Source of the DNA: a candidate division WOR-3 bacterium
Lineage (GTDB): Bacteria > SDB-A
Assembly (NCBI GenBank): GCA_016926475.1
Contig: JAFGON010000046.1
Coordinates: 1-36,483 of the forward strand
Length of the DNA: 36,483 bases
Reading direction: 5' to 3'
The notes beneath the pieces were generated by a model. The model searched no databases and was not told the origin of the DNA. It worked only from the letters and a program-made list of their open reading frames with translations. The translations under genes were made by a program, and so were the position numbers. Position 1 is the stretch's first letter. Each line of letters opens with the position of its first letter. Below, piece by piece: positions 7,461 to 33,044 of this stretch.

Positions 7461-9569
7461 CTAAATGTTATTTTTTCCAAAATAACTTCGGACTGTTTTT
7501 GACGGTTGTTTTATGGATTTCATGATTTCGAAGAATTCATCTCTGTTTTTGATTTCTGATATTTTAAGCAGAAATTCGCTGTCGCCGAAAATTTTTCCTA
7601 TGGAGGCGAGAATCTGAAGATGAGGGGATTCTGCTTCAGGTGAGAGAATGAGAAAAAAAAGCTTGGAATCTTTGTTGTCTATCGAATCGAATTTCACGCC
7701 GCAGCGAGAAATTCCAACTGCAATTTCAACATTCTTTACCCTGTTAGTCCTTATATGAGGAACCGCAAGTCCGTTTTCAAGACCTGTGCTCATCATGTCT
7801 TCTCTTTCCAATATCTTTTCGAACAAAAATTTCTTTTCTGTAATTTTACCGTTTTGAAACAAAACTTCAAGCAACTCCTTTATCACTTCTTCCTTTTTAA
7901 CTGATTTCAAAGGCACAACAACGCATTTCGGATCAATAAATTTCATTAGGTTGACGTCATTTTTCGAAAATCCGTTCGTTATTATCTCTTTTTTCAACTC
8001 TTCAGGTTTGGCAATAGTTTTAAGGTGCTGGGCAGTTTCAAAAAGTTCGAGAAATGATTCGTAGGCGATTGTATTTATGAGCCCGACGTCTTCTTTTTTG
8101 GATTTGAAAATGATTTTGTCCTCAACAGCCGACATTTTCAGGAAGACCTTTTCTTTTCTGATGTAGTGAATGTTGTCCTGAGATTGTATGTGGGTTATAA
8201 AAAAGCCTTCTTTACTGAAATTGACAAGAATGTTTGACAGTATCAATGAAAACAGTTCGGGATTTGAAATGTCGAATGTTGTATCTACTTCATCAAACCC
8301 TTTGGGGTCTCTTTTTATGCCTTTTTTACTAGATTTGAATGAAGCGTCAATGAACGGAGGAGAGACGATTATGCTGAGCATTGCCATCATCATGCTCACG
8401 CCGAACGTCTTTTCGTCGAAAAGGTTGCTCATAAGGGCAAAACTCGCTATTATCAGGGCGACTTCAGCTCTCGGGACCATACCCAGGCCAATCCTCAGGG
8501 CACCTCTTAGGTTGAAATTGGTAATGTAAGCCGGAAGCGCACAACCGAATATTTTAGACACAAAAGCGAAGAGAGAAAACAACAGACCGAAGATCACGAT
8601 TTCTTTGACAAAAAATATCGAAGGGTCTACGAGCATCCCCATGATAGTGAAGAAAAATGGCAAGAAGAAGGCCTCAAGGGGGTTCAGCGATTCTTTGACC
8701 ACATAGCTTATATCAGTTCTCGAAAGGGACAATCCCATTACATAGGCTCCGACAATAAGGGCAAGACCTGATTTTTCAAAAATTCCTCCCATAAAAAAAG
8801 CAAGAGAAAGGGACAGAAGCGAAAATGTCATCTTGTTTTTGAAAACTTTAAGGGCTCTGCCGATTTTTCTCGCGGCGAGAAGGCTTAGAACGGTGAATAT
8901 CAGCCAAAGAGCGATGATTTTGATTGAAAATGAAAGAATGCTGAAAAGGGTTTCGCTTGACGAAGAAGAGGATTGAGCTCGTGAAGTCGAAACCGCGACG
9001 ACGATCGACAAGGTCAATATTCCCAGGACGTCATCTATAACCGCCGCTGAAATTACAGAAACCCCCTCCGGAGTATCTATTTTTTTCCTCTCCGAGAGTA
9101 TTCTCACCGTTACGCCCACCGAAGTAGCCATGCTTATACATCCGAGAAGCATGGATTTGGGTGAAAGAAAAGGTTCATGGAGAAACAAAACCGAAGCCAG
9201 GTCACCGAGTAAAAAAGAAAAAAAAGCGCCGGAAAGACCTATAAAACTCGCTGAAAGAGAATAGTGCAGGAACAATTTGATGTCGGTTTCAAGTCCTGAA
9301 AAGAACAAAAGCATCATGGAAGCCACAGTGGCGAATGAATACAATTCAGCGCTCACGGGGAAACCCATTGCTGAGTTGAAAGGGAATAGGCCTTCGGGAA
9401 AACCGGGGAGTGGTATTTTACCCAGAACATAAGGACCTATTATCACTCCGGCAATGATTTCACCCAAAACCGAAGGCAGCCTCAATTTTTTGAAAAGCAG
9501 CCCTGAACCGGTTGCGGCTATTAGTATTATACCCGCCTGAAAGACAAATCTTGTCATGTATTCCGTCAT
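7461..9569 (-). CDS. CPA2 cation/proton antiporter fused to a PTS EIIA-2 domain
   Basis: A 702-residue protein. Residues about 1-410 form a many-helix CPA2 antiporter domain with the family's SGLETDI segment (91-97) and the D179-D180 pair in AAVIDDVLGIL, the ion-binding site of electrogenic Na+/H+ exchangers. A linker of about 130 residues follows, then a fructose-type EIIA domain (about 560-690) with the phosphoacceptor context GLAVPHIRT, His605. EIIA domains normally relay phosphate in sugar uptake; fused to a transporter they are thought to sense phosphorylation or nucleotide state. The chosen ATG has AAGGA 7 bases upstream and lies downstream of a good promoter; an in-frame TTG at 9623 would be upstream of the transcription start. 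It converges on the GH18 gene. Confidence 0.9.
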   Translation of the reverse strand: MTEYMTRFVFQAGIILIAATGSGLLFKKLRLPSVLGEIIAGVIIGPYVLGKIPLPGFPEGLFPFNSAMGFPVSAELYSFATVASMMLLFFSGLETDIKLFLHYSLSASFIGLSGAFFSFLLGDLASVLFLHEPFLSPKSMLLGCISMATSVGVTVRILSERKKIDTPEGVSVISAAVIDDVLGILTLSIVVAVSTSRAQSSSSSSETLFSILSFSIKIIALWLIFTVLSLLAARKIGRALKVFKNKMTFSLLSLSLAFFMGGIFEKSGLALIVGAYVMGLSLSRTDISYVVKESLNPLEAFFLPFFFTIMGMLVDPSIFFVKEIVIFGLLFSLFAFVSKIFGCALPAYITNFNLRGALRIGLGMVPRAEVALIIASFALMSNLFDEKTFGVSMMMAMLSIIVSPPFIDASFKSSKKGIKRDPKGFDEVDTTFDISNPELFSLILSNILVNFSKEGFFITHIQSQDNIHYIRKEKVFLKMSAVEDKIIFKSKKEDVGLINTIAYESFLELFETAQHLKTIAKPEELKKEIITNGFSKNDVNLMKFIDPKCVVVPLKSVKKEEVIKELLEVLFQNGKITEKKFLFEKILEREDMMSTGLENGLAVPHIRTNRVKNVEIAVGISRCGVKFDSIDNKDSKLFFLILSPEAESPHLQILASIGKIFGDSEFLLKISEIKNRDEFFEIMKSIKQPSKTVRSYFGKNNI
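7467..7486. terminator. AT-rich hairpin at the end of the GH18/antiporter convergence
   Basis: GTTATTTT (7467-7474) pairs perfectly with AAAATAAC (7479-7486) around a TTCC loop. It lies inside the last codons of the antiporter gene, 29 bp after the GH18 stop. It could end the plus-strand transcript; with no GC in the stem centre it is weak. Confidence 0.3.
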
Positions 9570-9611
9570 TATTTTTCCTTTGATGCTCGATATTATGGAA
9601 ATGTTGTGCTG

Positions 9612-9639
9612 ATTATACTTCAAAGGGATAGAAAATCAA
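9612..9639 (-). promoter_or_regulatory. promoter of the antiporter gene
   Basis: Read on the minus strand, TTGATT (9634-9639) is followed after 16 bp by a perfect TATAAT (9612-9617). Transcription would start near 9605, about 36 nt before the ATG at 9569. Confidence 0.6.
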
Positions 9640-9720: not shown

Positions 9721-10473
9721 ATGATACGGTCAACAGTGAAAATATCCATTATTATACCATTGTCAATTGCTGTCTTCGCCAATTTAAGCGCTGTCACGGC
9801 GGAAGAAATAGCGGCAAAACTGGATGACCTTTACCGAAGCCAATCGAGCATGGGAAAGGTTGAAATGACAATAACAACCCCGGAGTGGCAAAGAACCCTT
9901 GTCTTTGAAATCTGGACTCTGGGTATGGAAAAAACATTTGTCAAAATCGTATCTCCTGAAAGAGAAAAGGACTTTGCGACGCTGAGAATAGGAAACGAGA
10001 TGTGGAACTACCTTCCAGCCACAAACAGAGTAATGAAAATACCTCCGTCTATGATGCTGTCCTCCTGGATGGGGTCTGATTTTACAAACGACGATTTGGT
10101 AAGAGAGTCATCCTACATCGAAGATTACACCTTCCAAATAGTGAAAGTTGAAAATCCCGTTCAGGGAGAAATATACCTGGAGATGATTCCTAAAGAGACC
10201 TCCGCCGTAGTGTGGGGGAAAATAATAACTGCTGTCCGAGAAGGCGATTTTCTGCCTTTGTGGCAAAAGTATTACGATGAGGACGGAAACTTCATGAGAG
10301 AAATGGTATTCACAGAAATTGTAAATTTCGGATCGAGAGAAATACCTTCCACAATGGAGATAAGACCCCTGGACAAACCCGGAAACAGCACAGTTGTTCG
10401 TTTTATCGATATCGAATTCGACACAGACATTGACGAAGGGATATTTTCTCTGAGAAACCTGCAAAGAAATTGA
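9721..10473 (+). CDS. LolA-like outer-membrane lipoprotein-sorting protein (COG2834)
   Basis: A 250-residue secreted protein with a signal peptide (about 1-27, cleavage near VTA-EE). The mature part matches the LolA_like group: EIAAKLDDLYRSQSSMGKVEM at its start, the central RIGNEMWNYLPATNRVMKIP, then SSWMGSDFTNDDLVRESSY. Such proteins have the LolA half-barrel fold and carry lipids or lipoproteins across the periplasm. Four downstream genes supply two permeases, an ATPase and an outer-membrane barrel, so this is likely the periplasmic carrier of one export route. The ATG is the first in-frame start; the ribosome site (AAGAG) is poor and the mRNA leader looks very short. Its TGA overlaps the TTG start of the next gene. 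Confidence 0.85.
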   Translation: MIRSTVKISIIIPLSIAVFANLSAVTAEEIAAKLDDLYRSQSSMGKVEMTITTPEWQRTLVFEIWTLGMEKTFVKIVSPEREKDFATLRIGNEMWNYLPATNRVMKIPPSMMLSSWMGSDFTNDDLVRESSYIEDYTFQIVKVENPVQGEIYLEMIPKETSAVVWGKIITAVREGDFLPLWQKYYDEDGNFMREMVFTEIVNFGSREIPSTMEIRPLDKPGNSTVVRFIDIEFDTDIDEGIFSLRNLQRN

Positions 10474-11687
10474 AACTCATACTGAAAATCGCTCTGAGAA
10501 ATGTTTTTCGTCAAAAGAGAAGATCCCTGTTGACCGGAATGATGATGAGCGTTGGATTCGCTCTTTTCTCAACAAGCATCGCGTGGATTGACGGATCCTA
10601 TAATACCATAATAACAAATTTCACCGAGAACAAACTCGGGCACCTCCAGATCCACGTAAAGGGTTATCTTGATTCTCCGAGCATCTATAAAAGAATAAAA
10701 TCGGCTTACGCTTTGGGAGATTCAATTCTAAATATAGAAGGAGTTAGGAGCTGGACTCCGAGAATTTTAGCCGGAGGCCTTGGCATGGTCGGTGAAAACA
10801 CAGCGGCCGTGCAGATAATCGCCGTTGACCCTGCAAGAGAAGACCTCTCTTCCAAATTAAACAAAAAAGTTATAGAAGGCTCTTACCTGCCTGATGTAAA
10901 CAGCAAAAAAGTTTTGATAGGAAAAGATTTGGCAAAAATTATTTCAGCCGAAATCGGCGACACAATAGTGTTTTTATCCCAGTCGGCGGATGGATCAATC
11001 GCCAATGATCAGTATGAAATATCAGGCATCGTATCTACAGGTAACCCTTCTGAAGACAGGATTTATTGCTACATGGATATCAAAGACGCCTGGAATCTTT
11101 TTTACATGCAAGGAAGCTGCCACGAGATATCGATACTGATCAATTCAATAGACGACATAGAGAATATGAAGAGGAAAATCGGCTCGATTCTGCCCGAAGA
11201 CCTCGAAATTAAAACTTGGAAAGAATTCGCCAGGTCATTTTACAAAGCGATGCAAGCCGACAGGGCGGGGGACATGGTTTTCAGAATAATAATCATGCTG
11301 ATAATATCAGTCGGGATATTCAATTCCGTTCTGATGGCTGTTTTGGAGAGGACCAGAGAATACGGGCTTCTGAAATCTCTCGGAATGAAACCTTCTGAAA
11401 TCTTTGGTTTAATATACTCCGAGCTTTTCATACTCTCGTCATTCAGCGTCTTTGCCGGCTCCGTCATCGCAACCCTTGCAATTTGGTTTTTGTCTTACAA
11501 AGGATTGACGCTCGGAGAGGGATTTTCTTACGGAGGGATGATTTTCAGCGAATTGAAAGCCACATTTTCCATAAGGGCGTTTTACGAACCTTTGTTACTG
11601 CTGGTTTTATCTGTTGCCGCCGTGACTTTTTTCCCGGCTTTGAAAGCCTCCAATACCGACCCAATAGTCTCAATGAGAGATTTTTAG
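10470..11687 (+). CDS. FtsX/LolCE-type ABC transporter permease, first of two
   Basis: A 405-residue permease with the MacB/LolC layout: one helix near the N-terminus (about 18-40) after the typical IALRNVFRQKRRSLLTG opening, a large extracytoplasmic domain (about 45-260), and three C-terminal helices (about 268-390), with the coupling-region phrase LLKSLGMKPSEIFGLI and an end in NTDPIVSMRDF. The start is TTG overlapping the previous TGA (ATTGA), so translation is coupled. With the following permease and ATPase it would make a heteromeric LolCDE-like machine that lifts lipids or lipoproteins from the inner membrane to the LolA-like carrier. Substrate unknown. Confidence 0.87.
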   Translation: MKLILKIALRNVFRQKRRSLLTGMMMSVGFALFSTSIAWIDGSYNTIITNFTENKLGHLQIHVKGYLDSPSIYKRIKSAYALGDSILNIEGVRSWTPRILAGGLGMVGENTAAVQIIAVDPAREDLSSKLNKKVIEGSYLPDVNSKKVLIGKDLAKIISAEIGDTIVFLSQSADGSIANDQYEISGIVSTGNPSEDRIYCYMDIKDAWNLFYMQGSCHEISILINSIDDIENMKRKIGSILPEDLEIKTWKEFARSFYKAMQADRAGDMVFRIIIMLIISVGIFNSVLMAVLERTREYGLLKSLGMKPSEIFGLIYSELFILSSFSVFAGSVIATLAIWFLSYKGLTLGEGFSYGGMIFSELKATFSIRAFYEPLLLLVLSVAAVTFFPALKASNTDPIVSMRDF

Positions 11688-11692
11688 CGAAT

Positions 11693-12919
11693 ATGTTTTT
11701 AACAATTTCCAAAATCGCTCGCCGAAACATCCTGAGAAACAAAAAGCGGAGTCTGATAACCGCTGTATCGGTCGGTCTTGGTTTGTCGGTTTTAATATTG
11801 ACCGATGCATTGATTCAAGGTTTCAACAACTACATTAGAACTTCTTTAACCTCTGTTTTCTCTGGTCAGGCTCAAATACACAATGAAAATTTCATCCAGA
11901 CCATGCAATCCAAAGACACCATATTCAATTCATCTCAAGTAATGAACGACTTGAAAATTTTCGAACAAGTAGAATATTTTTCACCGCGGTTACTCTCAAA
12001 CGCGACGGTGACTTCAGTGTCAGACCTCAAATACGTGCTTTTAGCGGGAGTCGATCCCAACAGAGAACGTAATTTATCAATTTTTGACGACTGCATAATA
12101 AAAGGGAGCTATCTCACGCAGGAAAACCGCAACGGCATCCTTCTGGGGGTAGACCTTGCAAACACTTTGGGAGTTGACACAGGAGACAAAGTGGTCATAA
12201 CCCTCGCAAGGACAAATACCGGAGAAATCTATCAAGAACTTTTCAGGGTCTCGGGTGTCTTCGACACAGAAATGGAAGAAATAAACAAATCGATAGCTTT
12301 GGTTGAAATCAACGCCGCCTCTGAAATGCTCGGTTTAAACGGCGAAATACACGAGATTGCTGTCGTATTTAAAGATCAGAGCTACTCCGATGACCCTGAC
12401 GGTGAATTCTTCTCGATGTTTTCCAAAAACGGAAACAAGTCTTTGAGCTGGAAACAAATCTATCCGGATATCGTCAAAATGTCTGAGATGACCGACATAT
12501 CAACCCTTGTAATAGCAGTTATAATATTTTTAGTTGTAGGCCTTGGAATCGTCAACACAATTTTCATGTCAATATACGACCGGCTGTTTGAATTCGGAGT
12601 TCTCAGGGCGATTGGAGCGAGAAAAAAATTTATCGTCTATATGATATTGTCAGAAACCCTTGTCTTGTCGTTCTGGAGCGTTGTTGTCGGTGGGTTTTTA
12701 GGTCTATTGATAACTTTCATCCTCTCGAAGACTGGTATAAACTACGGTGGAATCGAATACGAAAGCGTGCTTTTGAAAACCGTTTATCCGAGTTTACGTC
12801 TATACCAGTTTATAAAGTACCCGGTGTTATTGATGATATTTTCAGTTTTGATATCTTTGCATCCGGCTCTTTACGCTTCGAGAATATCTCTCGCAAAGTC
12901 GGTAAAAAAGACTCTTTAA
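11693..12919 (+). CDS. FtsX/LolCE-type ABC transporter permease, second of two
   Basis: A 408-residue paralogue of the preceding gene with the same arrangement: FLTISKIARRNILRNKKRSL opening, one helix, a large periplasmic domain, three C-terminal helices, and the phrase LFEFGVLRAIGARKKFIVYM between helices. ATG 11693 is chosen because it starts with the family's usual N-terminus five bases after the previous stop; the frame is open much further upstream, but that part only overlaps the first permease gene. Two different permease genes side by side imply a heterodimer like LolC-LolE. A GAGAG within the end of the upstream gene may be its ribosome site. Confidence 0.87.
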   Translation: MFLTISKIARRNILRNKKRSLITAVSVGLGLSVLILTDALIQGFNNYIRTSLTSVFSGQAQIHNENFIQTMQSKDTIFNSSQVMNDLKIFEQVEYFSPRLLSNATVTSVSDLKYVLLAGVDPNRERNLSIFDDCIIKGSYLTQENRNGILLGVDLANTLGVDTGDKVVITLARTNTGEIYQELFRVSGVFDTEMEEINKSIALVEINAASEMLGLNGEIHEIAVVFKDQSYSDDPDGEFFSMFSKNGNKSLSWKQIYPDIVKMSEMTDISTLVIAVIIFLVVGLGIVNTIFMSIYDRLFEFGVLRAIGARKKFIVYMILSETLVLSFWSVVVGGFLGLLITFILSKTGINYGGIEYESVLLKTVYPSLRLYQFIKYPVLLMIFSVLISLHPALYASRISLAKSVKKTL

Positions 12920-12930
12920 AGGGGATTTCA

Positions 12931-13626
12931 ATGAATGTTTCAAAAATAATAATCGACATTGAAAATTTAAAAAAAACATACTCTGACGGAGGGATTCCGG
13001 TCCACGCGGTAAGGGGGATAACCTGTGAATTCGAAGAAGGAGAATTTACAGCTATCGTCGGTCCTTCGGGCTCTGGAAAGACCACTTTGATGAATCTAAT
13101 GGCCGGATTGGACACTCCGACCGAGGGATCGGTGTCTTTAAACGGAACCCCGATAAGCAAAATGAAAGGCTCGGTTTTGTCAGATTTCAGAAGGGATAAC
13201 ATTGGATTTATTTTTCAATCCTACAATCTCATCCCTGTTCTCACTGTGAGAGAGAACGTCGAATTCATACTTCTTCTAAAAAAAGTCTGCAAGAAAATAA
13301 GAGATCAAAGAGTGGAAGAAGTCCTCGAAGAGATAGGCTTAAAGGGTTTTGCCGAAAAAAAAGTTACAATGATTTCAGGCGGACAACAGCAGAGAGTCGC
13401 AATAGCCAGAGCAATAGCGGCTAAACCGAAGATAATACTCGCTGATGAACCGACCGCGAATCTCGATTCAGAGAACAGTGTTAACCTCATTGAAATAATG
13501 CTGAAAATGAATAAAATCCACGGGACAACATTTATATTTTCAACACACGACAGCCTTATAAGAGACAAAGCCAAAAGGATCATAACCGTGAAAGACGGGA
13601 AGATATTTTCTGACGAAAAAAAATGA
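12931..13626 (+). CDS. LolD/MacB-type ABC transporter ATP-binding protein
   Basis: At 231 residues this is the usual length for LolD/FtsE-type ATPases. All motifs are intact: Walker A GPSGSGKTT at 44-52, Q-loop Gln96 in FIFQSYNL, signature SGGQQQR at 149-155, Walker B IILADEP at 168-174 and the switch histidine at 206. The Q-loop phrase FQSYNLIPVLTVRENV is characteristic of the MacB/LolD subfamily. The ATG follows AAAGGGG by about 8 bases. It energises the two preceding permeases on the cytoplasmic side; its stop overlaps the next gene's start (ATGA). Confidence 0.93.
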   Translation: MNVSKIIIDIENLKKTYSDGGIPVHAVRGITCEFEEGEFTAIVGPSGSGKTTLMNLMAGLDTPTEGSVSLNGTPISKMKGSVLSDFRRDNIGFIFQSYNLIPVLTVRENVEFILLLKKVCKKIRDQRVEEVLEEIGLKGFAEKKVTMISGGQQQRVAIARAIAAKPKIILADEPTANLDSENSVNLIEIMLKMNKIHGTTFIFSTHDSLIRDKAKRIITVKDGKIFSDEKK

Positions 13627-14795
13627 AAATCAATTTGTATCTTTCGGTTTTGTTTTTGCTCTTTTCAGTTTCTCAACGTTGTGATTGCCTTGATTATGAA
13701 TTCGGAGGTTTTTGTAGAAATTATTATTCCATGAACGTCCAACTGAGCGAAAGACCTTCACGCGGCTTTAACCTGAACTCCTGTTATTTGAAATTTCGTT
13801 TATCAAAAACCGATGTTCTGACTTTAAACTCGGCAGTCTTTTTTTTCGCTTCAGCTTCAGACCCCTTTCATTTTCCTGAAATTTCAGAGATAGACAAGTC
13901 TTTCCGGTTCGGCTGTCACAAAAAAATTCTCTACCCGAGAAACAAGGAAAACAGCGGTCCTTTTTGTATTTCCGCCGATATAGACAGATTCAACATAATT
14001 CTCAAAACTCCGAAATTCGACGTTTTCGCAGGCAGACAAGCTATTTCCTGGGGAATGTCGAGGTTTATATCCCCGACAGACATCTTTATAAAGACGTCTT
14101 TTTTTGACGCCGTCAGAAGCGAGTCCAGGGGGATTGACGCCCTTTTGGTCAGATCTCCCCTCACGGACAAGGGCGATTTCACTTCTGGCATTGTCATAGG
14201 GGAAAATTTCGACTCTAAAAATTCCGCGTATTTTGCCAAAGCCAGGACATCTATTTTGGGCATAGATACCGAACTTTTGTACTGTGAATTCAGGCAGGAA
14301 CAGATTTTTGGCGTTTCTCTTTCACACCCGCTTGGAGGAGCTCTGATCTGGAGCGAAACAGCGTTTTACGGAAACATTGAAAGTTTAAACGTTTCTCTGG
14401 GTTGCGATTATTTTTTGTCGGGCGGAGCTTACGTTTTTTTGGAAATATTTTTCAACGGGCTGGGGGAGAGCTCTAGCGAGGATTATTGGCAAAATGAAAG
14501 CAAAAAGGCTTACATGAAGAAACTTGTCTATCTCAACGGCAGAAATTACTTTTCTTTCGGGATTGACAACCAAATAACACCGCTTGTCCACCATTCCTCG
14601 AGAATCTCTGTTAATGCATCTGAACCATCTGTTTTCGCATCGCATACTATCGATGTAAATTTAAGAGAAAACGTATACTTCGATTTTGGGTACACGGGAG
14701 GCTACCCTCTTTTCGGCATGGATGCTGAAAACAGTTTTTCGGAATACGGTTCGATAGGCAAATCATTTTTCGGCTCGATCTCGATCTATTTTTAA
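13623..14795 (+). CDS. outer-membrane beta-barrel protein of the export operon (DUF1302-like)
   Basis: A 390-residue protein with a signal peptide (about 1-22), then alternating short amphipathic strands and a C-terminal phenylalanine (GSISIYF), the usual end of an outer-membrane barrel. The segment VFAGRQAISWGMSRFISPTDIF near residue 140 strongly recalls DUF1302/alginate-export-type barrels, where a G-R-Q-x-x-x-W-G motif precedes a description of strands. DUF1302 proteins elsewhere accompany LolA-like and transporter proteins in lipid export. Here it is translationally coupled (ATGA) to the ATPase and closes the operon, so it is the likely outer-membrane component receiving the cargo. Family placement is by pattern and is not certain. 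Confidence 0.75.
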   Translation: MKINLYLSVLFLLFSVSQRCDCLDYEFGGFCRNYYSMNVQLSERPSRGFNLNSCYLKFRLSKTDVLTLNSAVFFFASASDPFHFPEISEIDKSFRFGCHKKILYPRNKENSGPFCISADIDRFNIILKTPKFDVFAGRQAISWGMSRFISPTDIFIKTSFFDAVRSESRGIDALLVRSPLTDKGDFTSGIVIGENFDSKNSAYFAKARTSILGIDTELLYCEFRQEQIFGVSLSHPLGGALIWSETAFYGNIESLNVSLGCDYFLSGGAYVFLEIFFNGLGESSSEDYWQNESKKAYMKKLVYLNGRNYFSFGIDNQITPLVHHSSRISVNASEPSVFASHTIDVNLRENVYFDFGYTGGYPLFGMDAENSFSEYGSIGKSFFGSISIYF

Positions 14796-14801
14796 AAAAG
14801 T

Positions 14802-14853
14802 TTTGAACACTGGAATACAAGATCAAAGCATCTTGACCTAGCATTTGAACACT
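14802..14853. repeat. 10-bp direct repeat TTTGAACACT around the M23 promoter
   Basis: TTTGAACACT occurs at 14802-14811 and 14844-14853, 42 bp start to start, i.e. four helical turns. The second copy fills most of the spacer between -35 and -10 of the promoter below, as expected for paired regulator sites on one face of the DNA. Confidence 0.45.
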
Positions 14854-14861
14854 CCTATAAT
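14833..14861 (+). promoter_or_regulatory. strong promoter of the M23-bactofilin operon
   Basis: TTGACC (14833-14838) and a perfect TATAAT (14856-14861) are 17 bp apart, the best-matched promoter in the window. The start point would be near 14868, only about 9 nt before the ATG at 14877, so the AGGTG at 14866-14870 would be at the very 5' end of the message or missing from it. Confidence 0.7.
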
Positions 14862-14876
14862 AATTAGGTGATTTAA

Positions 14877-15791
14877 ATGAAAAGAAATGAAGACAGATTT
14901 TTAACCATACTTTTTATTCCGCACAACGCCAAATCCCCTCATGTCATAAAAATACCGTATTTTTACATCAATTCGGCAATTATTCTTCTTGTCTTGATAG
15001 TAATATTTTCAACAGTATCTTTTTTCACCATGAGATACTACGCCAATCAAAAATCAATGCTCGACAGAAAAAATAGGAGTTTAATCTGCGAAAGAGACAC
15101 TCTATATGAAATAATTGATCAAGTCGAAAGCATAAAGAACGAACTGATTGTCCTTGAACAGCTGAGAATAAATCTCAGAAGTAAAATTTACGAAGACAGT
15201 CAAAGCGCTAATTACCAAAACGATATGATCCTCGCCGATTTGCTTCCTCCTCTAGGTGGAAGCAGTTCGGAATACCAGGGGTATAACTCTCTAAAGAGAA
15301 CTTATGACGAAATACTTTTTTTAAAAAACCAAATGCCGACGTCTTTTGATTTGGCTGAAAAAACCCTTTCTGAAGCAGAAAGCATCGATTACGAACTCGC
15401 CCATATTCCTTCGATAAATCCCACCGAAGGTCATATAACTTCCGGATTTGGATTCAGAGAAGACCCTTTCCTTCACACCACAAAATTTCATCACGGGGTG
15501 GACATACCAAACTCTACGGGAACACATATTTGGGCGGCAGCCGACGGAGTTGTGAACTTCGCCGGAACCATGTCCGGTTACGGCAACATCATCAGAATTC
15601 ATCATAATTGTTCCTTGGAAACAGTTTACGCACACCTCGACAGTTTTGCCGTCAGGCTTGGCGAAAAAGTTCAAAAAGGTCAACTAATTGGGTACATGGG
15701 ATCGACTGGAAGGAGCACCGATCCACATCTGCATTATGAAGTGAGAATAAACGACGAACCTGTAAACCCCGTAAACTTTATTAAAAATTAG
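14877..15791 (+). CDS. membrane-anchored M23 family metallopeptidase
   Basis: A 304-residue protein with one N-terminal membrane helix (about 31-52), a coiled-coil-like region (about 60-110), a linker, and a C-terminal M23 LytM-type domain (about 183-304). Zinc ligands fit H205-x3-D209 (FHHGVDI) and H286 of the HLH motif at 284-286, with catalytic His253 in VYAHLD, so the enzyme looks active. M23 enzymes cut peptidoglycan cross-bridges; versions with a helix and coiled coil act at the inner-membrane face of the wall in division or shape control. The next gene is a bactofilin, 10 bases downstream, and M23-bactofilin pairs are a known shape-determining module. The ATG has AGGTG 6 bases upstream. 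Confidence 0.92.
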   Translation: MKRNEDRFLTILFIPHNAKSPHVIKIPYFYINSAIILLVLIVIFSTVSFFTMRYYANQKSMLDRKNRSLICERDTLYEIIDQVESIKNELIVLEQLRINLRSKIYEDSQSANYQNDMILADLLPPLGGSSSEYQGYNSLKRTYDEILFLKNQMPTSFDLAEKTLSEAESIDYELAHIPSINPTEGHITSGFGFREDPFLHTTKFHHGVDIPNSTGTHIWAAADGVVNFAGTMSGYGNIIRIHHNCSLETVYAHLDSFAVRLGEKVQKGQLIGYMGSTGRSTDPHLHYEVRINDEPVNPVNFIKN

Positions 15792-15801
15792 GGAGAGGGA
15801 A

Positions 15802-16239
15802 ATGCTCGGAAAAAATTCAAGGGGCGATAGCAAAATTGAAACAGTGATTGGACAGACTTCATTCCTCGAAGGCACAGTGTCGTCTGAGAATTCGCTTAGA
15901 ATCGACGGCAAGATAGAGGGAAAAATCAACGGAAATCAAGATATAATAATAGGAGAATCAGGATACGTGAAGGGAACCATTAAAGGCGAAAATCTGATAA
16001 TAGCGGGGATTCTCGAAGGAACAGCCGATATAAACGGAACTCTTTCGATAAAAAAAAGCGCGACCATACTCGGAGATATTGTTGTAGGGGCGATCGATAT
16101 AGAAGAAGGCGGAAAATTTCTCGGGAGCTGTAAGATGAAAAATGAACCGAAACTTCTTGAAAGCTCAAGAATTTTCGAGGAGAAAAAAAAACGAGAACCG
16201 ACCGAAGATTCGGATTCAGGCCAGAAAAACACGGATTGA
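15802..16239 (+). CDS. bactofilin cytoskeletal protein
   Basis: A 145-residue protein whose central part (about 15-110) is the bactofilin domain: ETVIGQTSFLEGTVSSENSL, then LRIDGKIEGKI and repeating G-x-I/V units of a right-handed beta-helix. The tail is charged and probably disordered. Bactofilins polymerise without nucleotide into membrane-associated filaments and position wall enzymes. The start is ATG with GGGAGAGGG just upstream. It follows the M23 peptidase gene with a 10-base gap, consistent with the filament scaffolding that enzyme. Its stop overlaps a TTG that could start the next gene. Confidence 0.93.
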   Translation: MLGKNSRGDSKIETVIGQTSFLEGTVSSENSLRIDGKIEGKINGNQDIIIGESGYVKGTIKGENLIIAGILEGTADINGTLSIKKSATILGDIVVGAIDIEEGGKFLGSCKMKNEPKLLESSRIFEEKKKREPTEDSDSGQKNTD

Positions 16240-28616: not shown

Positions 28617-31600
28617 ATGAAGCTGATAAATCGCCGTTACAGGGTAGAAGGAGAAATCGGACAGGGGTCTTACGGCGTAATATACAAAGTCTCGGATCTT
28701 CAGGACGAAAAAAATCCTTCCAAAACACTGAAAATCTACAACACAGACAAATTGGTCAACCAGGATCTCGACGCTTTTAAAAACGAGTATTTCTACACCA
28801 AAAGCATTGATCTGCCCTGCGCAGTAAAAGCCCACACATTTGAAAAGATATACAACATTGACGGTTTTTCTTTTTACGGCAACTACTATTTTTACACAAT
28901 GAACTATATCAGAGGAAAGAACATTTCGTCGTTAAAGCTTTCGACAAAAAAAGAACGTTCTCTTTTGGCAGAAAGGCTTTTGTTCACCCTTAAGTGGCTT
29001 GAATCAAATGGTTTCGGTCACAGCGATTTACACCGGGAAAATATTTTGGTCGATGAGAATTCCCAGATAATCCTTTTGGATTTCATTCAACCAAAAATAA
29101 TTCAACTCGAAGAAGACGATTTAAAAGCTTTCATAAAAGAAATCACCGGACATGATTTAGCAAAGGCATTAATAGACCATCAAAAACTGAAGTTTAGAAA
29201 TATTTGCCCCAAAGCTTTTTTTGACTTTGTCAGAAAATATTACAGGATGAACATAGGGACTATTGGACATGTCAAAAGTCATTTTGACAGAGCTTTGACC
29301 CTTTCAGAAAAGGCAAAGATCTTCAGAATAAACGCAGTTAATTACAAAGATAATTATTACGATATACTCAATGGTTATTTTAAATCATACTCTGAAATCA
29401 ACGAATATTTTTACATAGAGCTCGATTTATCAAAAGATCCGCTCACTTATTTCAACGATTTTAGAAATCAGATGATGAAATCGCTCGATTTAAGGGGTAT
29501 TAAGTCTTCAGAAATCACAAAAGACGAGACGATTATAGACAAAGACTCAAAAGCCCTCGACCATATAATTTCATCTATTGAGAAACTGTCCTTATACGGC
29601 AAAGTCGCTGTCAGTTTCAAGGGTAATAACCGAAAAAACGAACTGACAGAGACAATCGAGGCTGTCGAAGAAAGATTCAAGGGTGAAGGTCTCTTGATTC
29701 TTACTCCGATATTGTCAGATTCTGGCAAATCAAGCGGATTCTATAATATTTGCGAACCTCCGGACAGCGACAAGTTTGAAAATTTTCTCAAGGAAAAAAT
29801 AAAGAATATCTTCTACGCTTTAGATGTTGACGACATAATAGACTACATGCGCAAAAATGGAAATTATGATATTTGCAGAATTCTTGAAAACGTTTTGAGA
29901 TCCAACAGGTCTTTGAAAAGCAGTTCAAGAACTCTGAATCTTATAAATAAAAACGCTTTAAACCGTATTTTTGAAGACAAATACCGCCGGATCAAAGATA
30001 GCACCGATTACGAATATTTTTTCAGCTATTTTGAATTGCTTAAAAGGCCTGTCGATATATCTTTGTTGAAATTGTTTTTGGGCGACGGGCCTGGAAAATC
30101 TCTGGATGAAATCATATATGACCTTCTCGGCTTAAACCTTTTGGCCTTTCAGCCAGGCGGAGCATTGGACTACTACGACCGGACCACCGAAGTGAAAGTC
30201 CGTTCATACTTTAAAAAAGAAGATTTCAAAAATAAGGCTTCTTACGACGTGATAAAGTATTTAGAGAAAAAAAACCTCAGGATTGACGAGGAAAAACTTC
30301 TTCTGAATTTATACTTTTCGACAAGTCAATTTTTTGAGTATTCACGTTTTCTGTTTTCCCATTTCATCGAACCATTCAGAAATTTAAACAGCATAGAGAA
30401 AATCGCCGAAGATTTTATTTATAAAATCGAATCCAAAAATCTCTTGAAATCAGTAAACCTTCCCCAGGGTCTGCCGAGAGAAACCATAAAATATATCTAC
30501 ATAAAATTGAAGAACAAGTTCGACCTATCTCGTAAGATCGAGAATCTTTTAGATTTTGTAGAAAAGGACCAACCCTGTGCATTTATCAAATACAACGTTC
30601 TGTTCGACGTATTCAGCCAATACCTGAACTCGGGGGACATGGAGAATTCAAAATCAATTTATGACGTTATTTCTGTCGAAAAGGAAAATTTGGGCAAGTA
30701 TCAGAACCTGGCATTTTTGATATATCGTGCAAAGTTCTACACTCTGTTTTCCGAGTTTGAAAAATCAATATCAGACCTGAGGGATTTTTTCCGTAATGTT
30801 CACAAGGAAAAGGATGACAAGACAAAGTATTTAACTTTGAAAGCTCTTGAAATATTGGCTGACCTCTACCATAAACAGGGAAAAATGCAAAAATTCGCGA
30901 ATACTATTAGAATTTTCCTTGAAAAGGCAAAAGTTGTATCGGACGAAAACGGGGATTTAAGCTACTTTTTCTCTGCAAATACAGATTATGCTTATTACCA
31001 TTTCAATTACGGCAAGAGGTCTGAAGCAAAGAAATATTTCCAAAAAGCCCTTGAACTCGCACAAACATACAAAGACTACAACGACCTGATTCTCGCTTCA
31101 AACAACCTCGCAGCAATCGAAAACGACACTAAAATCACCCTCGAATACCTGAGAGACGCGTTGAAGTATTCAAATATGATAGGGGAGAACGTATACATAT
31201 ACCTTGTTATTTCAAACATACTGTCTCTCAACATAGATCCTGTTAAAAAATACGGATTCATCAGGGATAATATGAGCATAATTCTGAACTGCAACACGGA
31301 CCATGAGATTTCTGTTAAATTCTGCCTTGATCTTTACTACTCTATCATTTGCATCTTGTTGTCACTTGACAAAAAAGAAGAATTGAGTTTTTTCTTTGAG
31401 AAATTGGAAAAAATCGAAATCGAAAAACAAAGAATGCCTGACGCTTTTCTGTTGAAGAAAATCGTTCAGACCTTCTATCAGATTAGTTTAAATGGCTATA
31501 AAAAAGATTACTTTAATATTTATTATAAATTATTGGATGAATTTAACGATATATACAACTATTCTATAATTGTTTATATGTATATCAACAGCCTTTTCTA

Positions 31601-33044
31601 CCACCTGGACGACAGTCAAATTGTTTTTATTTCAAAAAAAATTATCAGTTTGTTTAAAGATATTTTTGCCGGTGACGAGATAAACAGCGTCAGAATGTTC
31701 GTAAAACTTAAAACGTCGAAATTTAAAAAAGAGTCCCTGAAAAGGTACATTGAGAGGTATGTCTCCGGTCTTTCGAATTTGAATTATCTCTCATACAGGA
31801 TAATTTTCATTTTATCCCAAGCGCTGAAGGGGATGGGTGATGACGAATACAAAAATCTGCTCTCCTATTCCGCAGAAGAGCTTGTGAAAACCAGGGACAG
31901 TTTCAAAAACAAGAGGTTGTTTAAAAAAACCATGTGTTTTCGTATTTTATGTTATTTTAAAAATGATTTTCCATCGGAGTACAACCGTTTAATTGAAAAG
32001 AAGGAAAAATTTCAATTCACAAAAAATTCTTTCCTCGATTTGAACAGACAATTGCAGTTAAACTATTTTTCAGAAAATCAAGTGTTGATAAAGAATGTCA
32101 TATCGGCTGTTTTGCGTTCTTTGAATTACGATAGAGGAGCTTTTTTTACATCTCTTCAGAACAAAATCCCGCAAATTGTCGTCTACAGAAAAAAATATTA
32201 CTATTCAGAGGACGATCCCTATTTTATCGATAAAATCCCTCTTGAAAAGTCAACGGAAGTTTTCACCGGACTTAACGAAGACAAATATTCCTCAATCAAA
32301 TCTTTCATCTCTATTCCTGTAGTAAACGAGTTGTATTACAAGAGGTTCATGCACCGGATCAACAGGGAAAAATCTAGAAGATCTTCTCTCACCAAAAGTC
32401 TTTTATACGAAAACAACATAATCGACGGTTTGATTTACCTTGACAAAAAAAATGGCTTATCGGACAGTTTCAACCCCGAATATCTCAATTTATTGTCATT
32501 TACGTTGTCACAGTACTGGAATTACAACAGGGCTGAAAAGCTTTATATGAGAGACGGGCTGACGAATTTATATTTGAGAAACGTTTTTTTGAATAAGTTA
32601 AGGGAGATGATCCACAGAGAAGAAGAAAGAGTGCATAAATTGTCTTTGATAATGGTGGATATTGACGATTTCAAAAATGTAAACGATCTGTTTGGGCACT
32701 CAAGGGGCGATTATGTGCTGAAAAAACTCTCTGAAATAATGGTAAAAAAAATCAGATCATCAGATTTGGTTGGAAGATACGGAGGTGAAGAGTTTTTGAT
32801 TGCTCTTCCGAACACAAACATCCATTCTGCTGTTGTCGTAGCTCAAAAGATCAGAGAAGTTATAGAAAAATCCCAAATAATAGGCGACGCTATGAAACTC
32901 ACTATCAGCTGCGGGGTCGCAGAATATCCAAAAGATTCTCAATGGCTTGAAGAACTTATAGAAAAGACGGATAAATATTTGATAAAAGCTAAAAATCTAG
33001 GTAAAAACCGTGTTGTATCGTCAATAGACGAAAATTCAACTTAG
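28617..33044 (+). CDS. multidomain signalling protein: kinase-like, degenerate AAA, TPR-like, GAF-like and GGDEF diguanylate cyclase
   Basis: A 1475-residue protein without membrane segments. Residues 1-230 form a protein-kinase-like domain: glycine loop G15-Q-G17-SY-G20, lysine K39, catalytic H135-SDLHREN142 with D137, and D155-F-I in place of DFG. Residues about 250-560 have the rhythm of the AAA/STAND module usual after such kinases, but no P-loop is visible. Helical TPR-like repeats (about 600-1130; EAKKYFQKALELAQ) follow, then a GAF-like region (about 1155-1300) and a GGDEF domain with G1389-GEEF and an inhibitory site R1380-SSD1383 in correct spacing. The output is likely c-di-GMP under product control; the input is unknown. 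ATG directly abuts the previous stop. Confidence 0.85.
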   Translation: MKLINRRYRVEGEIGQGSYGVIYKVSDLQDEKNPSKTLKIYNTDKLVNQDLDAFKNEYFYTKSIDLPCAVKAHTFEKIYNIDGFSFYGNYYFYTMNYIRGKNISSLKLSTKKERSLLAERLLFTLKWLESNGFGHSDLHRENILVDENSQIILLDFIQPKIIQLEEDDLKAFIKEITGHDLAKALIDHQKLKFRNICPKAFFDFVRKYYRMNIGTIGHVKSHFDRALTLSEKAKIFRINAVNYKDNYYDILNGYFKSYSEINEYFYIELDLSKDPLTYFNDFRNQMMKSLDLRGIKSSEITKDETIIDKDSKALDHIISSIEKLSLYGKVAVSFKGNNRKNELTETIEAVEERFKGEGLLILTPILSDSGKSSGFYNICEPPDSDKFENFLKEKIKNIFYALDVDDIIDYMRKNGNYDICRILENVLRSNRSLKSSSRTLNLINKNALNRIFEDKYRRIKDSTDYEYFFSYFELLKRPVDISLLKLFLGDGPGKSLDEIIYDLLGLNLLAFQPGGALDYYDRTTEVKVRSYFKKEDFKNKASYDVIKYLEKKNLRIDEEKLLLNLYFSTSQFFEYSRFLFSHFIEPFRNLNSIEKIAEDFIYKIESKNLLKSVNLPQGLPRETIKYIYIKLKNKFDLSRKIENLLDFVEKDQPCAFIKYNVLFDVFSQYLNSGDMENSKSIYDVISVEKENLGKYQNLAFLIYRAKFYTLFSEFEKSISDLRDFFRNVHKEKDDKTKYLTLKALEILADLYHKQGKMQKFANTIRIFLEKAKVVSDENGDLSYFFSANTDYAYYHFNYGKRSEAKKYFQKALELAQTYKDYNDLILASNNLAAIENDTKITLEYLRDALKYSNMIGENVYIYLVISNILSLNIDPVKKYGFIRDNMSIILNCNTDHEISVKFCLDLYYSIICILLSLDKKEELSFFFEKLEKIEIEKQRMPDAFLLKKIVQTFYQISLNGYKKDYFNIYYKLLDEFNDIYNYSIIVYMYINSLFYHLDDSQIVFISKKIISLFKDIFAGDEINSVRMFVKLKTSKFKKESLKRYIERYVSGLSNLNYLSYRIIFILSQALKGMGDDEYKNLLSYSAEELVKTRDSFKNKRLFKKTMCFRILCYFKNDFPSEYNRLIEKKEKFQFTKNSFLDLNRQLQLNYFSENQVLIKNVISAVLRSLNYDRGAFFTSLQNKIPQIVVYRKKYYYSEDDPYFIDKIPLEKSTEVFTGLNEDKYSSIKSFISIPVVNELYYKRFMHRINREKSRRSSLTKSLLYENNIIDGLIYLDKKNGLSDSFNPEYLNLLSFTLSQYWNYNRAEKLYMRDGLTNLYLRNVFLNKLREMIHREEERVHKLSLIMVDIDDFKNVNDLFGHSRGDYVLKKLSEIMVKKIRSSDLVGRYGGEEFLIALPNTNIHSAVVVAQKIREVIEKSQIIGDAMKLTISCGVAEYPKDSQWLEELIEKTDKYLIKAKNLGKNRVVSSIDENST

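Follow-up and report, generated by a model that had tools for sequence, protein, structure and literature searches.

Five adjacent genes in a stretch of 36,483 nucleotides from a candidate division WOR-3 bacterium (the whole stretch is called the window below) probably encode an exporter of the shuttle type that is dedicated to a hydrophobic molecule and separate from the lipoprotein pathway of the cell. They specify a LolA-like periplasmic carrier, two permeases and an ATPase of the ABC type, and an outer-membrane beta-barrel. Little is settled about how lipids that are neither LPS nor lipoproteins travel to the outer membrane, and the operon bears on this question: the set is conserved and self-contained, spans every layer of the envelope, and is found in many phyla of which few members have been cultured.

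The five genes and their products

The genes lie on the forward strand at positions 9721–14795, with neighbours that overlap or are at most 11 bases apart. The coordinates, families and predicted barrel of the five-gene export operon proposed in the preliminary description were confirmed by the open reading frames, Pfam and a structure model.

The carrier gene comes first (9721–10473, +). Its product was recognised by its Pfam match and its predicted fold; it has a signal peptide and lacks a lipobox cysteine. PF17131 (LolA_like) is its sole Pfam match, at 158 bits against a cut-off of 30, and PF03548 (LolA) gives none. In an AlphaFold2 model (pLDDT 88), the predicted fold is that of the PF17131/DUF1329 subfamily, structurally nearest the DUF1329/LolA3 group: structure comparison gave 3BUU, 3BK5, 9TP6 (LolA3 of P. 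gingivalis) and 4Z48 (a DUF1329 protein) as the nearest solved folds, with TMq values of 0.72–0.77, and values of about 0.37–0.46 for canonical LolA entries.

Permease A (10470–11687, +; LolC/E/F-like) has a TTG start and overlaps the carrier gene by 4 bases. Permease B (LolE/LolF-like) follows after a gap of 5 bases (11693–12919, +); its ATG at 11693 is taken as the most likely start within a longer mechanical ORF that runs from 11483. The ATPase gene (12931–13626, +; LolD/FtsE-like) begins 11 bases further on. Both permeases contain MacB_PCD and FtsX domains, and the ATPase matches ABC_tran with 133.9 bits and has all of the Walker A (GPSGSGKT), signature (ISGGQ) and Walker B (ILADEP) motifs. 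With such permeases and an ATPase of the LolD/MacB type, the engine is, as judged by sequence, a member of the type VII ABC transporter superfamily; Pfam found no RND or MMPL engine in the operon. Nor did it find among the operon's proteins a MacA adaptor or a TolC duct, as a MacAB-TolC tripartite pump would have. In profile comparisons of the two permeases, LolF, LolE and LolC rank above MacB, and yet the permeases reach only 107.7 and 113.2 bits against TIGR02212 (LolCE), where the cut-off is 362.45, as the ATPase reaches 211.3 bits against TIGR02211 (LolD), where it is 307.75. A separate MacB-like permease gene, adjoining an ATPase gene, lies on contig C88 of the same genome, and a further permease distantly related to LolC/E, again with an ATPase gene, on G000:C96 (L006, L134).

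The most conserved stretch of the periplasmic domain of permease A is QSADGSIAN (residues 171–179), which aligns, against E. coli sequences, with the Hook hairpin of LolC in a loop about five residues shorter than that of LolC. Since the Hook recruits LolA in LolCDE (PMC9457489), this alignment would make permease A most likely the docking subunit.

The last gene (13623–14795, +) overlaps the ATPase gene by 4 bases and encodes the predicted outer-membrane barrel, which has a signal peptide and ends in SIYF. The AlphaFold2 model (pLDDT 87.4, pTM 0.82) has about 18 long strands, and Foldseek matched it to porins, OprD/Occ channels and AlgE-type folds (E about 1e-10); these matches are generic, with TMq of about 0.4–0.6, and do not indicate a specific function. 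Sequence searches for homologues of solved structure gave none that was credible. The C-terminal residue is F or Y in 62/62 full-length homologues among the matches listed, and in an alignment of 51 family members the invariant positions cluster around a GRQ..WG..D core. The window barrel itself matches no Pfam family. DUF1302 is matched weakly by five of the 51 members (best E 5.5e-5), and its cut-off of 23.2 is passed, at 25.8–30.5 bits, by three of ten distant relatives scanned (L110, L114 and L115), which lie beside MMPL-carrier fusions, before or after them, or share that arrangement. The barrel had been described as DUF1302-like, a fair description of a likeness that is remote and may stop short of family membership.

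A strong match to a sigma-70-like promoter (TTGACC-17-TATAAT, 11/12, a consensus match only) is present at 14833–14861 (+), ahead of the next gene, which suggests that the transcription unit ends after the barrel. Directly downstream are an M23 peptidase gene and then a bactofilin gene (14877–16239, +), in an order kept in the genus and, with other genes between, in genome G003. On the other side is a gene for a sodium/hydrogen exchanger domain fused to a PTS EIIA domain (7461–9623, −), syntenic beside the operon in two genomes of the same genus. The window also encodes a 1475-residue protein (28617–33044, +) that carries a protein kinase domain at its N-terminus and a GGDEF diguanylate cyclase domain at its C-terminus.

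Conservation of the set and the separate lipoprotein pathway

One scan of a genome collection gave 80 carrier loci, all of which were fetched. The full set is kept in 65 of them, across about a dozen phyla, most of the others being cut by contig ends; in 63, carrier, permease, permease, ATPase and barrel follow one another in the same order and on the same strand. Two betaproteobacterial loci, in Methylibium rhizosphaerae C1-9 (L074) and Herbaspirillum sp. ST 5-3 (L084), have all these parts, the two permeases being joined in one protein, and the presence of the system in these named strains makes it testable in cultured betaproteobacteria. The exceptions to the linkage are a carrier without the rest (L053, L057), a carrier with permease A only (L061, L072), and genome G453, in which barrel and ATPase are kept and the permeases and carrier are absent. 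Within the organism's own phylum, the barrel stands beside the ATPase and permease B in all four genomes examined, and full operons were read in three genomes besides that of the window; within the genus, the system lies among ordinary genes in a single syntenic block. Of 132 genomes in the phylum of G020, 34 have a strong carrier and 30 of these 34 a barrel, the carrier or operon in the four barrel-less genomes lying at a contig end (a position judged, for G460 and G528, from match coordinates alone). The gene neighbourhoods thus bear out the conservation of the barrel beside the carrier, and the persistence of the set across about a dozen phyla and in all four genomes of its own phylum argues that it is not due to chance.

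Some loci differ in layout. In the Poribacteria, the carrier is followed in L051, L053 and L057 by a protein of 188–216 residues and one of 542 residues, and is separated from permease A in L050 and L052 by about 2.2 kb. In L140 and L142, distant PF17131-type carriers adjoin other type VII-like permeases without this barrel.

The fold of the barrel is that of a generic porin, and within the genus it diverges fastest (40–43% identity, versus 70% for the carrier), as might be the case for a general porin that merely adjoins a Lol-like operon. This explanation is nevertheless very improbable, given the linkage of the barrel over many phyla and its co-divergence with the other four proteins: in 59 operons, the pairwise distances of the five proteins correlate with r of 0.95–0.99 (0.95–0.97 for the barrel against the other four), part of which is expected from shared descent alone. 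Remote relatives of the barrel are, moreover, linked to carriers beside RND engines.

These more distant pairs of carrier and barrel, reached in other genomes via weaker barrel matches, adjoin a large protein of about 780–900 residues, which Pfam identified as MMPL/RND in all six cases scanned; L115 and L116, whose large proteins are outside these six, agree with them in length and order. L110 and L114 have carrier domain and MMPL protein joined in one chain, a fusion that argues for contact between carrier and engine. The window carrier has homologues among the carriers that adjoin RND proteins, and two of these carriers also match DUF1329; in the carrier tree the ABC-linked and RND-linked rows are split by one change with a support of 97. 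The likeness to RND systems with LolA-like and DUF1302-like proteins, put forward in the preliminary description, is therefore supported by the occurrence of homologous carriers and barrels next to MMPL proteins, and the carrier-barrel module occurs with two kinds of engine. A broader proposal, to which slightly less than an even chance is given, is that these systems form an unrecognised and widespread class of shuttle, in which the same carrier-barrel module can work with an ABC engine or with an RND engine and hydrophobic molecules reach the outer leaflet, or exit, via the barrel without a continuous periplasmic channel.

How the operon stands to the lipoprotein pathway depends on what else the genome encodes. 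One PF03548 LolA is encoded on another contig downstream of an ftsK-like gene; elsewhere, a lysS-like gene is followed downstream by genes for a LolF-like permease and a LolD-like ATPase (the ftsK and lysS identities being a reading of the sequences). The scores of this permease (349.6 for TIGR02212) and ATPase (269.7 for TIGR02211) are closer to the cut-offs and also below them. Canonical LolA coexists with the system in 24 of 30 other genomes that carry it, and there is no LolB-like gene in the operon. Because the genome also holds ftsK-lolA and lysS-lolF-lolD, the operon is not the cell's lipoprotein pathway, and the general lipoprotein pathway was rejected as the main reading. It had been proposed that the operon would be simply that pathway if it were the only Lol system of the genome and the barrel were not conserved beside it; neither half holds.

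Another possibility is a second, specialised route for a subset of lipoproteins, which the barrel would place in the outer leaflet or on the cell surface. The permeases are nearest LolF/LolE and the carrier has a LolA-type fold, and a Borrelia cluster of MacB-like ABC, LolA-like and Omp85 proteins has been proposed to serve lipoproteins or another non-polar ligand (PMC13078400). However, the coexistence of a complete-looking canonical Lol set, and of canonical LolA in most of the other genomes, makes such a route improbable, as does the nearness of the carrier to the DUF1329/LolA3 group, since LolA3 of P. gingivalis binds the local LolB only weakly (PMC13103446). Nor did the clustering of flanking genes show any lipoprotein gene recurring next to the operon.

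Regulators, cargo and a possible mechanism

Of 87 loci, 19 have a TetR-type gene next to the operon, in several phyla and in both the ABC and the RND versions, which suggests inducible export. The TetR profile, for which these loci themselves supplied the seven sequences, gave no matches further off in them, and Pfam confirmed the TetR identity for six. Only these regulators recur in the flanking-gene clustering, which gave no recurrent biosynthetic gene.

The TetR genes might be explained if the system were an inducible pump that expels toxic compounds of hydrophobic nature (xenobiotics, solvents or antimicrobial lipids) rather than a transporter of a lipid of the cell's own. The patchy presence of the system in the phylum of G020 is in keeping with this, as is the nature of the RND analogue AmeABCD, an efflux system for apolar monoterpenes (PMC6394551). 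However, there is no TetR gene beside the window's own operon or beside most of the others, and the system is kept in 4/4 genomes of its own phylum and, in the genus, within a block of ordinary genes. An efflux pump is thus possible rather than probable; its likelihood overlaps that of the shuttle-type exporter, of which it is a sub-case differing only in the origin of the cargo.

As to the cargo itself, a hopanoid-like lipid had been suggested as an example. No match to squalene-hopene cyclase (PF13243) was found in the genome or in three others of the phylum, so a hopanoid is unlikely here and was rejected for this organism; PF13243 matches are present in 4 of 21 other genomes with the system. 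A replacement for LPS transport is likewise not supported, since this genome encodes LpxC, as do 22 of 25 genomes that carry the system. Among other systems of the RND type, TOL_3187/3188 has been linked to the C28 alkane (PMC6304351) and PP_0765/0766 to Tween 20 (PMC10866462).

For the preferred reading, a shuttle-type exporter, we infer the direction of transport, all contacts among the parts and that the cargo is hydrophobic. A heterodimer of permeases A and B with a dimer of the ATPase would pull a molecule that is amphipathic or hydrophobic out of the inner membrane, in the manner of LolCDE. The carrier would dock on a hook-like hairpin, most likely that of permease A, and the molecule would enter its half-barrel cavity. 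The carrier would then traverse the periplasm and dock on the barrel, the stand-in for LolB, where the molecule would enter the outer membrane or leave the cell.

Comparison with known systems

Like LolABCDE of E. coli, the operon has a type VII ABC extractor with a pair of permeases and a single ATPase family, and a soluble carrier of half-barrel shape. It differs in that a barrel replaces LolB, the carrier belongs to PF17131/DUF1329 rather than PF03548, the permeases fall far under the LolCE cut-off, and a canonical Lol system is encoded elsewhere in the same genome. YbbAP-TesA differs from the operon in having a periplasmic esterase as partner and neither carrier nor barrel (PMC12646458).

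A LolA-superfamily carrier, a barrel and an inner-membrane transporter are likewise found together in AmeABCD of Castellaniella defragrans (PMC6394551) and in PP_0765/0766 and PP_2018/2019 of P. putida (PMC10866462). In these systems, the carrier is DUF1329, the barrel DUF1302 and the substrates hydrophobic; the window barrel is only remotely DUF1302-like. Their engines differ from the ABC engine here, that of AmeABCD being RND/HAE3, with an extra periplasmic protein, and that of P. putida an efflux transporter described as multidrug. In Thalassolituus, TOL_3187/TOL_3188, proposed to aid the passage of long-chain alkanes (PMC6304351), resembles the operon in that a LolA-like domain is followed directly by a porin-like protein, and this described domain order makes it a putative homologue. 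Unlike here, carrier and MMPL (RND) engine form one fused protein, which is the arrangement of the fusions in L110 and L114.

The BBJ23-29 cluster, seven genes limited to Borrelia (PMC13078400), also combines a MacB-like type VII ABC transporter, a LolA-like protein and an outer-membrane barrel, but it has a single, homodimeric permease, two TPR proteins and a barrel of the Omp85 type rather than a porin-like one. AmeABCD, the Thalassolituus MMPL-LolA/porin pair and BBJ23-29 are the closest published relatives, and none combines these parts; in the open-access papers searched, no description was found of an ABC transporter with a PF17131 carrier and a porin-like barrel. By their shared carrier and barrel, the operon and its relatives link two kinds of system that have been described separately, the ABC-Lol systems and the RND systems with DUF1329 and DUF1302.
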